64,000 nt of DNA from Gordius sp. MW1. Lineage: Eukaryota; Nematomorpha; Gordioida; Gordea; Gordiidae. This document shows positions 8,473 to 28,199 of this stretch, in pieces. How positions within the stretch are numbered: the first letter of the stretch is position 1; each line of letters starts with the position of its first letter. Under the pieces are notes generated by a model, which saw only the letters and a program-made list of their open reading frames with translations, was not told the origin of the DNA and ran no database searches. Position numbers and translations under genes: made by a program. Where the stretch lies: positions 930,001 to 994,000 of the forward strand of contig OZ038531.1 in the NCBI GenBank assembly GCA_964036665.1. Reading direction: 5' to 3'.

Positions 8473-10689
8473 TTATTTATAAGTTTTGTGTGGTAGACAA
8501 ATTGGAAATTTTTTGGACCATATGCCTTTGCCCATGCATTTTGAACGATGAAAACCTTGCCTTAGGTAATTGGTATTGCACTTGAATTTTATCATTTGTC
8601 CAGGACTAAATGTAAAAACATCCTCTGGTTCTACCTTCCCGTTAGGCAACAAATCTTTTGGGATTGTACAATTGTGAAAATCTTTGAAAATAACATTTCA
8701 ATTTAACGAGAATATATGTAAACCATAATAACTTGAAACATTTAAAAATAATAAATTTATGTATTTATGTACTATCAATCCATTATAATTTATAAAGTTA
8801 GTTTCCAATAATGGTAGTTTAGGATTGATAAAATGCGAGGGTGGAAATGGGTTTAGATATTTCGGTCGTCCAGCGACCATTATCAATTAAAAAAAAAAAA
8901 GAGAAAAAAAAAAGGTAACTTACAAGTGATGTGAATTACCAATGAACGAGAAGGTGTCGACAAGTTTTATATGCTTATATAATGATAACTTCAACTTCTT
9001 GGGAAAATTTAAATTTATATTGTATTTTTGTTGATTATACAAAGTGACAACATTTTAAAACGTATAGAGAAAGATTAAAAATGTTGTTATTATAACTATT
9101 TGAGTAATGCAAAAGGTTTATAAATATTTTAAACATGGGCAAAATGCGAGTAAATAAGTAACCTTTAATGCATAGCGGGAGCTGAGGTTCTAGAGCATTA
9201 TCGTTTGACCACTGACCAGATTCTAGACATTTGGCAAACTTAGAGCCAGGGGCTTCGTTTAATGTGTAGCCAGGGTGACATTTGTATATAATTTGGGTAC
9301 CGTATTTGAAAGATATATTTTCAGAAGTTTGAGTAACAACATTGCCAACACTGTAATAACCATTTTCTAAGGAAACCGGTTCTGGACAATAAATGTCTAA
9401 ATATCAAAAAAACAAAAATTTTAGGTGTATCAAAATTAATAATTTATGAATCGTATTAAGAGATAGTTTTTTCATAAATTAGAGAAAATTAATTATAAAC
9501 CGATGAAATCGTACAAAATTAATAAATCCATAGACTTCTAATATGTAATCGCTAATCGTGCAGCATTATTAACAAACTGCATTACAGAGAGAAAGTTATT
9601 TATAATCTCATGTAAAATTTGAGTTTGAGCTATTCCAACTAAAATGATTTAATTTTTACAAATTTTGTTTCTGGTATTTATATAACAATATGATGTAGTT
9701 TTGAAAATACGGCTGGGTTTTATTTGGTCGACCTTTTCAACAGACTAACGGTCGATTCTGGTCTGTTTTTCACATTTTGACTAACTTAGAGGACTAAACA
9801 TTTGGTCTGTTTTATGTTTGGTCGACTAAAACCGAGGTCGACCAACAAAACCCACCCGTTTTTACAACACTAGTAAGATGTATAGATGGAGTGAACCTAT
9901 ACAATCGGGAACTGGAGCTGACCATTTCCCATTAAATTGACAAATAATGTGTGTGGGGCCATTAATCAAGGAGCCCTTTGGGCAAGCAAAAGTGATGACA
10001 CTGTTGTAAATATTTGAATCTTGTAAGGGTTGCATTATAATTCTGTTGTCTGTTTCGATTTTTAGATCTGGGCACGTGATTGCTACTTGATAAATATCAT
10101 ACATAATAAATTTATATTGGATGGGCAAAATTAAAATCATAAAGTAATAAATATGTTTAAAATAAAATTAAAGTTCTTTTTTAAAAAATTGATGTAAATT
10201 AAGGCTTTTATTTATAATTAATAAAATAATGGGAACAAAACAATAATTTTATTTAGGTATATGTAATAAATTAGTGAGTAAATTGTTTACATTGAAAGAA
10301 AAAAATAAAATGCTAATAAATTGTAAAATATATAATAATAACTAAAAAATTATTTTTTTGATAATGACATAAGTGAAAATTTGCCAACATACTTACAATA
10401 TATTTGGTAAATTTTTTATAAAACTTAATAAAAAGCACTTTTTAAATACTATTTAAACATTTTATATTTCAATGTAAACTTTGGCATGTTGGTATATTGT
10501 GAGTCCATTTCCCATCTGGGCCGCATTCAATTTCATCGATTGGTTCTGGTCTAAAGCCGTCGACACAAGCAAATTTAAGTTTGCTTCTCATTTCGTATGT
10601 GGCCGAGCCATTTGCTTTATCTTTTGTCAGTTGACGAGGACTAAAAAGCAGTCCCGTTCCTTTTATAACCGGAGCCGGGCACCTTACAT
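8473..10689 (-). other. C-terminal CCP15-CCP18 exons
   Basis: Four exons (10480-10689, 9897-10082, 9163-9396, 8473-8681) follow the Ig module. Typical CCP landmarks are visible: CCP15 ends GKWTHNIPTC, CCP16 ends GKWSAPVPDC, CCP17 has YKCHPGYTL and ends LPLC, CCP18 ends KGIWSKKFPIC and is followed within eight codons by a TAA stop at 8473-8475. The gene therefore ends here, with no membrane anchor or GPI-like tail, which points to a secreted product. Confidence 0.85.
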
Positions 10690-13600
10690 CTATTAAATTA
10701 ATGTATTTATTATTCCTGAAATATTATTTTTTTATCAAATTTACAAAATATAATGCATTTTGTTCAAATTATTATTTTCGAATAAGGAAACCTTTTATAA
10801 TTATGTGAATGTAATGGCTATTTTTGTAGGGGGTTACACAGGTAAAAACACCAGAATCATTACTCCCAGCCTTAGGAATATTTAGTAGATATTCATAATC
10901 CTGGGGCGAACCATTCAAGCTTTTGCTACTACCCTGACTCCATCCAACCGGATAATAATCACTATTTTTTCCAAAAATATTAATAAATAGTAAACAACAA
11001 CAAAAATAATGATAATAAATAATAGTAAACAATAATAATAATAAATAATAATGATACTTTGAAGAATTCCATTGCCAAACAGGTGTGCCATATAGCCGGG
11101 GGAACCAACAGGTTAAAACAATAGATTCACCAGGAAAAACCATTATAGTTCCGTCCATATTAGTAGTCCATTTATTAAGACTAGTCTGAATACTAATTTG
11201 GGGGTCAGAGGGCAAATCTAGGTAAGGATTGAGTTCATCAATAAGTAAAAATAAGAAAAAACAATAATTTACTTTTGATTAATTTTGATGCCATTAAACT
11301 TATTAAGGATATAATTACAAATTAAAATTATTAAAAGTGTTTAACCAAAGATTTCTTATCTAGAAAACATAGCTCATTTAGTAAACTTGTTATTTTTTAT
11401 TAAATACTAGCTGACCCGGCAAACGTTGTTTTGCTATATCCATTATTTCTAGAAAATACTGTAAGTGTATGGGTTGGTTATGAATAATAAAATAATTAAT
11501 TGAAGGATGGATAATTATTAAAAATTTGCTTCGATGATCGACCACGTGATAATAATGGCAAAAATTGCATAATTTAAATTTTATTTATTTAATTTAAATA
11601 GTGTGTTAAACCCCAATTATTTTGACCGTATACTGTAACATTTTTATTATACTTTTAAATATCTAATTTATTAAATATATATCAAAATCGATAGTCAATA
11701 CAGTGTATTTAAGAAGCTTTAAAGCATATTTTAGCTACAATTAAACTCTAGAATTATTTATTCTGAGCTGCTATATTACACAAAATTTCACAAATTTTGC
11801 CAATTTTGCAAGAGACTAGCCAGGAGGAATCAGGGAGAAACTGGACCCCCCCCCCCCTAAAAAATTCATATTTTAACCCTTTACAAAAATTAAAAATTTT
11901 AAGTATTATTTTGACATCAAGAATGTTTTTAGATATTAAATACATGTGTCCGTAGGTTTTCCTGGTAATTTTTGACAATGGGGCAGCAATGCTTGTTTGT
12001 CACCTGGGACGATCCAAATTCCATCGGAACAATACAAAATTTTGGAGCCGACAAATTGGTACATTCCCACATCTTGACATCTTACCACAATTATATTATC
12101 GTGCGAGACAATTGATCCTGCGTCTATCAATTTGCCTTTAAAGTAGCTGGCTATGGCGCTGGATTTGGGCAAAGTTGTACAGTTTTTGGGGGCTGCCATG
12201 CAAAAATAAACCCGTGAGGCCTCTAATTTTATTTACAATTCATATATAAAATTACGTGGGCGTAGCCAAGGGGTGGGGGCAAGGAGGGGCGGCTGCCCCC
12301 CCCCCTTAAATCCAAAAATTTGTTGAAACTTATCAAAATTATGGCTAAAAATTCAAAAGAGGATCATATTGCCCCCCTCTAATCCCAATGCTGGCTACGC
12401 CCATGTAAGATTATCTTAAAAAACTGAAACGAATTTAACATGGGCAGGAGGTTCACAATTAATTCAAAAACCTTAGATGATTTATGCATTTATATCAATG
12501 TTCAAAACTTTTGTAAATGACTATTTATGGTTCATATTTAGAATTAAATTTTTTAACAAGATTTCGGATTAAATTTTAAACGAATTTTATGCAACTTTAT
12601 CGGATTTTAAATCAAAAATCTCATTAAGACAGTTTTTTGTAAAAAAAAATATACAAGAACAAAGCATTAATTAATCTTACAGCATTCTTCTATGGGTTTA
12701 AGGTTTTCCCAAACACCACCATTGCATATTGAAATCCACGTTTTATACGGTTTAAAGCCAACACTACAGGTAAATCGCAGGGCTGTCCCGTTGTTATATA
12801 AAATTGTCCCATCTTCGGTTTTCAATATTTTTTTCGAGGTTTCATCAGAATTATTTGTTAACTTTTCAATTAAAGTGAAGGTAGAATGCGTTATCGAAGG
12901 CGGCGATTTGCAATATTTATCTATAAATATGAAATATTAAATAATAATTAATTTATGAAAAACCTAAAGAAATATGAAGTAAAATGGAATTTCAAATAAT
13001 ATGTAAAATAAAACCTTTAATTTCTACGCAGTTTCTAGTTTCATTGCTCCAAAATCCATCATTTTGGCATACAGATTGTTGTGGTCCATCCAGGTAGTAG
13101 CCATCCCAACAAGTGTATTTAATAATAGTTCCTGCTATATATTCTACAGCATTATCTTCAAGCAATGTAAAAGTCCCAAAGGGTGGTACAAAAGGTGGCA
13201 TGCATTTAACTAAATTTTAGAAAAATATTTTTTTAGATCAATAAATTAATTTTAAAATTACCTAGATCACAATTTGGTGTTTGAAAATTCCATTGTCCAT
13301 CCAAACAGGTGACAAACTTATTTCCGGTTAATTTGTGACCTCGCGGGCATGAAAATTCTAAAATAGTCCTATGGGGAAATTGATTAGGCACTAAAGATAA
13401 TATTTTAACGTCCAAATTTGAAGGCAAAGTTTTCAAAGAACACGACCCTGTGAAATTAATAAAAATAATGTATTTAAATTTGACAAATAAAATATTTTCG
13501 AAAAATTTTTTTTTGAAAGTAATTATAGAAAAAAAAACAATTTTTAACAGAAAAATAAAAATGAGAATTTTCTAACTTTTTACGCAATCCGGTGGTTTAG

Positions 13601-27886: not shown

Positions 27887-28199
27887 TGGCTTGGGGGCCT
27901 ACATTAGAACCATGATGATTTTCTTTTTCTTCTGAACTTCTACCAGAAGTTTCTTCAATTTCAACTTTAATTTCAGAATTTTCTCCATCACCTATTGAAG
28001 TTTGAATTAACGGGACGCCACCAGCTAAATTATAACCGTTCCATGATTGAATTTCATCAATTATACTCTCAGAAGTTTCCGAATCTTCTTCGTCAAAATG
28101 GAATAATTTGTCAAAGTTAAGTATGATAGTTAAGTAAAAGATGGATTTTAAAAAGAAAAACATCACCCATATTATGCCAGGTGAAAAATGATAAAACAT
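27887..28199 (-). CDS. Candidate first coding exon (signal peptide + acidic segment)
   Basis: An ATG at 28197-28199 opens a frame with a strongly hydrophobic stretch (residues about 8-28, IIWVMFFFLKSIFYLTIIL), usable as signal peptide or anchor. A Ser/Glu/Asp-rich hydrophilic segment follows. A donor (GTATAA, 27886-27881) after ...GCC A leaves phase 1, exactly the phase needed to join the exon at 18804-19226 and give ...AIKCGDPP. Together the chain would be 1518 codons including stop. The 8.7-kb first intron and the absence of transcript data keep this tentative. It could instead be an exon of another membrane protein. Confidence 0.45.

Follow-up and report, generated by a model that had tools for sequence, protein, structure and literature searches.

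The insect protein Hikaru genki (Hig) combines one immunoglobulin (Ig) domain with five complement control protein (CCP, or Sushi) modules (PMC9083331, PMC4411065) and, together with Hasp, localises mostly to cholinergic synaptic clefts (PMC9083331). Fly Hasp, in which a WAP domain is combined with as many as 17 CCPs, anchors Hig, and LEV-9 clusters receptors, its WAP domain being dispensable (PMC9083331). In a 2015 paper Hig was found in insects, whereas vertebrates and the remaining arthropods yielded no homologue (PMC4411065). A long CCP gene of the hairworm Gordius sp. MW1 is compared here with these systems. It lies on the minus strand of a stretch of 64,000 nucleotides, called the window throughout (assembly GCA_964036665.1, contig OZ038531.1, positions 930,001 to 994,000), and with a probability of roughly 55% is one nematomorph gene for a secreted extracellular scaffold of 14 CCPs, an Ig and four further CCPs that acts in the worm's own matrix, perhaps at synapses.

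Long CCP chains have also been described from nematodes, whose sister phylum is Nematomorpha (PMC11603191). Isoforms A-G of Caenorhabditis elegans F36H2.3 contain 11-16 CCP repeats, and long sushi proteins are reported with 15 repeats in Ascaris, where the F36H2.3 counterpart was called a complement factor H homologue, and 12 in Loa loa (PMC3744408). A different, mixed type is represented by clec-78, with C-lectin, CUB, Sushi, and EGF domains (PMC10187950). The literature searched yielded neither a comparison of Hig with F36H2.3 nor an account of this gene in hairworms, and absence from print is not claimed.

Exon structure and module order

The gene begins with an ATG at 28199 and ends with the stop codon at 8475-8473, exactly the span 8473..28199 proposed in a first-pass annotation of the window. 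Reading frames with the four-cysteine CCP pattern are aligned from 19266 down to 8476, and 21 coding exons join without a phase conflict to give 1517 codons and the stop, with no internal stop codon in the genomic frame; the annotation had recognised the in-phase chain but had counted slightly low (20 exons, at least 1412 residues). A hydrophobic and acidic N-terminus is followed by 14 CCPs, an Ig split over two exons, four CCPs, and the end of the protein. The genomic frame thereby bears out the order of CCPs and Ig given in the annotation, and also its phase-1 CCP borders: phase 1 occurs at every border between modules, and the sole other phase belongs to a phase-2 intron within the Ig. All 17 internal CCP exons are symmetric (1-1), and skipping one therefore keeps the frame. 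The Ig-internal intron (10962-11057) is 96 bases long and stop-free by chance, and its retention would likewise keep the frame. The AG and GT ends of exons were picked so as to preserve the frame, and their presence is for that reason not independent evidence. The predicted protein has 22 N-glycosylation sequons. Gene model and anatomy are well supported by sequence, and from them we infer one transcript across all 21 exons.

The intron at the CCP14-Ig junction, at 726 bp, is the longest after the 8.66 kb intron 1 between exon 1 and the CCP1 exon, and its length could mark a boundary between two genes, CCP1-14 and Ig-CCP15-18, read as one. The phases across it match (1 to 1), however, usable AG and GT sites are present, and a separate signal-peptide exon before the Ig was not noticed, though no systematic search for one was made; two genes at this junction are improbable.

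The whole spliced protein matches Pfam Sushi at an expectation value (E) of 4e-96 over 12 stretches, 12 of the 18 CCPs exceed the Sushi cut-off when tested singly (E 9.5e-14 to 1.8e-5), and exactly four cysteines occur in every CCP. With a custom profile built from the 12 clear modules, the remaining six reached 12.3-23.2 bits, whereas the highest score among 300 cysteine-keeping shuffles was 8.0 bits. A six-frame scan of the window with this profile, in which recovery of the 12 is in-sample, recovered the six modules not used to build it at E 8.4e-6 to 0.016, compared with best chance E-values of 0.064 to 0.63 in five simulated windows, and in its search for further CCP exons gave one outside piece, at E 0.99. 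Visual inspection had suggested another CCP-like piece near 21.3 kb, which was dropped once its sequence had been read. Matches in the PDB to complement receptors and factor H cover the CCPs, and are generic similarity rather than orthology.

The profile hidden Markov model search proposed in the first-pass annotation gave a weaker result for the Ig than for Sushi; the Ig matches Pfam Ig_3 below cut-off across both of its exons, at E 1.3e-5 as a separate piece and 0.0022 within the full protein. A phmmer search of the PDB with the Ig alone returned weak Ig matches only (best E 0.0038). The domain does hold a cysteine, a tryptophan, and the motif DSGVFTC, which we take to be the pattern of an Ig fold, and Sushi and Ig are the only Pfam models that match the full protein at E <= 1.

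Exon 1 (27887..28199, on the minus strand like all exons of the gene) encodes the ATG, a hydrophobic stretch, and an acidic linker (residues 1-104), and its sequence was found at a single location in a search of the genome. Its codon use, at 0.079, is higher than that of all 222 intron windows (maximum 0.056) and lower than that of every window from the other exons, which served as the training set (minimum 0.144); one reverse-strand frame of the exon scores 0.07. The coding mean is 0.242, and residues 35-104 taken separately exceed it slightly, at 0.263. Exon 1 is the likely, though not proven, start of the gene.

The CCP1 exon (18804..19226) has four cysteines and a long insertion, matches Sushi below cut-off (E 0.0045; profile 14.9 bits), and received a structure prediction of poor quality, with a mean predicted local distance difference test (pLDDT) score of 34.2. 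It is followed by six modules with clear Sushi matches, namely CCP2 (18530..18703, E 9.5e-12), CCP3 (17931..18104, E 9.5e-14), CCP4 (17274..17450, E 2.2e-6), CCP5 (16496..16678, E 1.8e-5), CCP6 (15975..16148, E 5.4e-9), and CCP7 (15239..15454, E 1.8e-7). Three divergent modules come next: CCP8 (14874..15167), which contains an insertion, has no Pfam match, scores 12.3 bits against a maximum of 4.4 for its own shuffles, and is the least certain module; CCP9 (14189..14389), with no Sushi match and 21.5 bits against 3.3; and CCP10 (13577..13762), with no Pfam match and 23.2 bits against 8.0. CCP11 (13262..13447, E 4.6e-7) and CCP12 (13015..13209, E 2.7e-10) are again clear, CCP13 (12681..12920) falls below cut-off at E 0.008 with 20.8 profile bits, and the divergent CCP14 exon (11944..12192), which includes a linker, has no Pfam match and scores 14.8 bits against a shuffle maximum of 5.2. 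The first Ig exon (11058..11217) supplies the first cysteine and the tryptophan and the second (10792..10961) the DSGVFTC motif. The tail consists of CCP15 (10480..10689, E 5.7e-10), CCP16 (9897..10082, E 4.3e-7), CCP17 (9163..9396, E 6e-10), and CCP18 with the stop codon (8473..8681, E 2.1e-10).

Two repeats lie in the introns of the gene. A minisatellite with units of 107-129 bases occupies window positions 26052-27025 within intron 1, and visual inspection showed units like these at 25.59 Mb of contig 2 and at the start of contig 7; a TAAA array of 143 units stands at 16696-17269, between the exons of CCP4 and CCP5. Seven long open reading frames were counted where simulated regions lead one to expect 0.06 each, but repeats influence this count, and it was not used for the gene.

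Comparison with Hig, Hasp, and LEV-9

Leafhopper Hig, a protein of 636 residues, has the order CCP1 - IG - CCP2, with IG-CCP2 at residues 293-631 and CCP2 at 396-631 (PMC7180231), and from its length the CCP2 block would hold about four CCPs. The same order of modules is found at the end of the hairworm protein (CCP14, Ig, CCP15-18, end), where the Ig and the CCP tail measure 110 and 279 residues, against about 103 and 236 in leafhopper Hig, and to this extent the first-pass view of a Hig-like C-terminus agrees with the published leafhopper architecture (PMC7180231). As in Hig, one Ig, here below the Pfam cut-off, precedes a C-terminal CCP block, but the hairworm protein has 18 CCPs in total rather than five and 1517 residues rather than the 636 of the leafhopper, and it does not come from an arthropod. 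A Hig-like tail is plausible, the resemblance being one of module order. A likeness in sequence to Hig may also exist around the Ig-CCP junction, as a lead only.

With Drosophila Hasp the gene shares a long CCP array (up to 17 modules there, 14 + 4 here), but Hasp carries a WAP domain, and an Ig is not mentioned for it (PMC9083331), whereas the hairworm gene has an Ig and no WAP was found in it: the window holds none of five listed genome matches to this domain, and the spliced protein gave none at E <= 1. These genome searches covered 211.8 Mb in 12 contigs, and the profile searches score the best candidates only, making match counts lower bounds. C. elegans LEV-9 is likewise a CCP chain, and a secreted one, but it combines eight CCPs with a WAP domain (PMC9083331), a composition that the hairworm protein does not have. 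The gene is thus kept out of the Hig group by its module count and out of the Hasp and LEV-9 groups by the lack of a WAP match; that it works like these proteins would be a separate claim.

One way to accommodate both likenesses is a single chain uniting functions that flies divide between Hasp and the Hig that it anchors (PMC9083331), with the 14 CCPs as a Hasp-type anchor and the Ig-4CCP tail as Hig. Both kinds of block do stand in one frame here, no close second copy of either block was found in the genome at the search sensitivity used, and no CCP was found within about 1.5 kb on either side of the five listed WAP matches (about 3.1 kb each). No WAP was found in the gene, however, such a search would overlook CCP exons lying beyond 1.5 kb of a WAP match or outside the best candidates, and an Ig may already be present in the long CCP proteins of nematodes, in which case the combination would be an ordinary inherited form. 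Such a union of functions is doubtful.

Nematode long CCP proteins and the age of the array

Contig ends and mitochondrion place the genome in Nematomorpha. Of nine contig ends read, seven show TTAGGG repeats, in six cases almost without other sequence, and two have none, one of these being the start of contig 7; the usual insect telomere repeat is TTAGG. Contig 12 is a mitochondrion of 14.8 kb, in two stretches of which 28 pairs of inverted repeats reach 25 bases or more; four pairs measure 95-108 bases and are 99-100% identical. Several pairs lie inside coding genes, among them the pair of 108 bases in the frame read as nad1 and the pair of 95 bases in that read as atp6, and others are intergenic (genes other than cox1 were named by eye). 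A reported trait of Nematomorpha is the presence of inverted repeats within coding genes of the mitochondrion, with rare, shorter, and less prevalent mitochondrial inverted repeats also mentioned for other animals (PMC6649704). An arthropod origin is ruled out by the telomeric repeats and the nematomorph type of mitochondrial repeats, and the arthropod frame of the first-pass annotation is abandoned with it. Three other hairworm genomes measure 201, 288, and 288 Mb (PMC11603191, Table 1). Many COX1-like stretches were also seen in the nuclear genome, on contigs 1, 3, 4, 5, and 8, one of them near full-length at 2829490 of contig 8.

In the sister phylum, the F36H2.3, Ascaris, and Loa loa proteins are likewise long CCP arrays, and F36H2.3 isoforms range from 11 to 16 CCPs (PMC3744408), against 18 here; isoforms of this kind fit frame-keeping skipping of symmetric exons. 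The annotation had proposed alternative array lengths and exon duplication, of which the former stands in principle and a recent form of the latter does not. Across 153 module pairs the mean identity is 31% and the maximum 44%, and adjacent modules, at 22-38%, are not more similar than others; the array is old, on account of this low average and of neighbours that are no closer. Symmetry of exons is usual for CCP genes and is not alone a sign of recent duplication. A lineage-specific extension, also suggested in the annotation, is doubtful since nematodes already have long CCP arrays (PMC3744408).

An alternative would be a plain nematomorph orthologue of F36H2.3 with no special link to Hig. 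Comparable repeat numbers in C. elegans, Ascaris, and Loa loa (PMC3744408) and the sister relationship of the two phyla (PMC11603191) favour it, yet no Ig is mentioned for the nematode proteins in the available part of PMC3744408, and such orthology is in any case compatible with a scaffold in the worm's own matrix; without a Hig link it is possible, if rather unlikely. As judged from architecture, the gene most likely belongs both with the F36H2.3-type proteins and, through its Ig-4CCP tail, with Hig.

Across the genome, Sushi (PF00084) gave at least 27 matches, nine within the window and 18 outside it. Among the best candidates, the Ig block matched only itself at E <= 10, and the 14-CCP part found nothing outside itself better than E 3e-4. 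A piece comprising the second Ig exon and CCP15-16, searched without the first Ig exon, had its best outside match at 19.79 Mb of contig 7 (26% identity, E 3.1e-5) and weaker ones on contig 8 at 10.865 Mb (E 0.053) and 8.461 Mb (E 0.93). No outside CCP locus that closely resembles the window gene was found, and a search of viral contigs found no relative.

Several of the outside loci have a character of their own. Those at 8.46 Mb of contig 8 and 11.52 Mb of contig 6 hold CCPs with CUB and with lectin-like, LDLa-like, and EGF-like pieces (by eye); they share CCPs with the window gene as clec-78-type loci (PMC10187950), but their domains are mixed and their similarity to it is only weak, and the hairworm protein shows Sushi and Ig alone where C-lectin, CUB, and EGF would be expected, apart from sub-cut-off cEGF in pieces. 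The contig 7 match belongs to a stretch without introns at 19790230-19791815 (minus strand) that reproduces a portion of the contig 6 lectin/CUB/CCP gene almost identically and is likely a processed copy. At 25.59 Mb of contig 2, several Ig-like pieces are joined with CCPs, and further CCP matches lie at 4.02-4.03 and 10.85-10.87 Mb of contig 8 and at 1.00 and 15.97 Mb of contig 7. CUB clusters with identical scores occur on contig 11 and at 3.40-3.43 Mb of contig 6, so that contig 11 may duplicate some portion of contig 6.

Hairworms parasitise arthropods (PMC10380579), and the gene might encode a secreted product that acts on host immunity or tissue in the manner of Heligmosomoides CCP proteins, of which TGM, with five CCP-like domains, binds host TGF-beta receptors (PMC9163516). 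TGM is part of an extended family (PMC5904571), whereas no close second copy was found here and the modules are old and diverged, and a parasite effector of this kind is improbable. More speculative, and highly improbable, is a Hig-like chain secreted into the arthropod host whose Ig-4CCP tail would compete with host Hig at cholinergic clefts and change behaviour.

Other features of the window lie outside the gene. WD40-repeat-like coding pieces at 31557-35749 (minus strand) belong to a neighbouring gene upstream of the CCP gene; two joined pieces gave weak, sub-cut-off Pfam WD40/propeller matches, and the outer limits were set by eye. Retroelement-like pol pieces, a Helitron-like N-terminal domain, and a weak helicase-like piece are spread over 252-1496, 1923-2546, 42678-42908, and 52111-55249 (minus strand), with an aspartyl protease match at 252-1496 (E 8.2e-5), an E of 1.2e-39 for the Helitron-like domain, and the 52-55 kb stretch judged by eye. 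A THAP domain reading frame lies at 59142-59408 (minus strand, E 2.9e-12).

A putative matrix scaffold and its significance

As a secreted scaffold in the worm's own matrix, the protein would leave the cell by means of its N-terminal hydrophobic stretch and form a long thin rod, the length of which could be altered by skipping of symmetric exons. The rod would bind partners in the matrix of the nervous or neuromuscular system, possibly at cholinergic synapses, and could hold receptors or other matrix proteins in place in the manner of Hig, Hasp, and LEV-9; a cholinergic role is suggested because all three hold synaptic components in place.

Several points weigh against this reading. The gene is known from genomic sequence, its kinship is drawn from module order, and its synaptic function is proposed by analogy, while CCP chains serve in immunity and parasite secretions too. 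Module order is itself a loose guide, since leafhopper and fly Hig share only 18.8% (PMC7180231). The Ig stays under the Pfam gathering score both as a piece and in the full protein, and its frame, with the intron included, gave a poor structure prediction (mean pLDDT 40.8). Pieces of the protein also match cEGF (E 1.6e-4) and HRM (E 6.4e-5), both below cut-off. At the N-terminus, codon use lends exon 1 moderate support, a lysine interrupts the hydrophobic stretch, and no clear cleavage site is seen by eye.

The gene is a variant of known CCP scaffolds, and its interest lies mainly in a possible link between Hig and the nematode long-CCP proteins. Should F36H2.3 already contain an Ig, the hairworm case would be an ordinary one. 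If the proposed reading is true, the hairworm protein, with its nematode-style array ending in a Hig-like tail, would connect two groups of proteins so far described separately in the literature consulted, and it would do so from the phylum closest to nematodes; the descent of Hig, Hasp, and LEV-9 from one long ecdysozoan protein would become testable.

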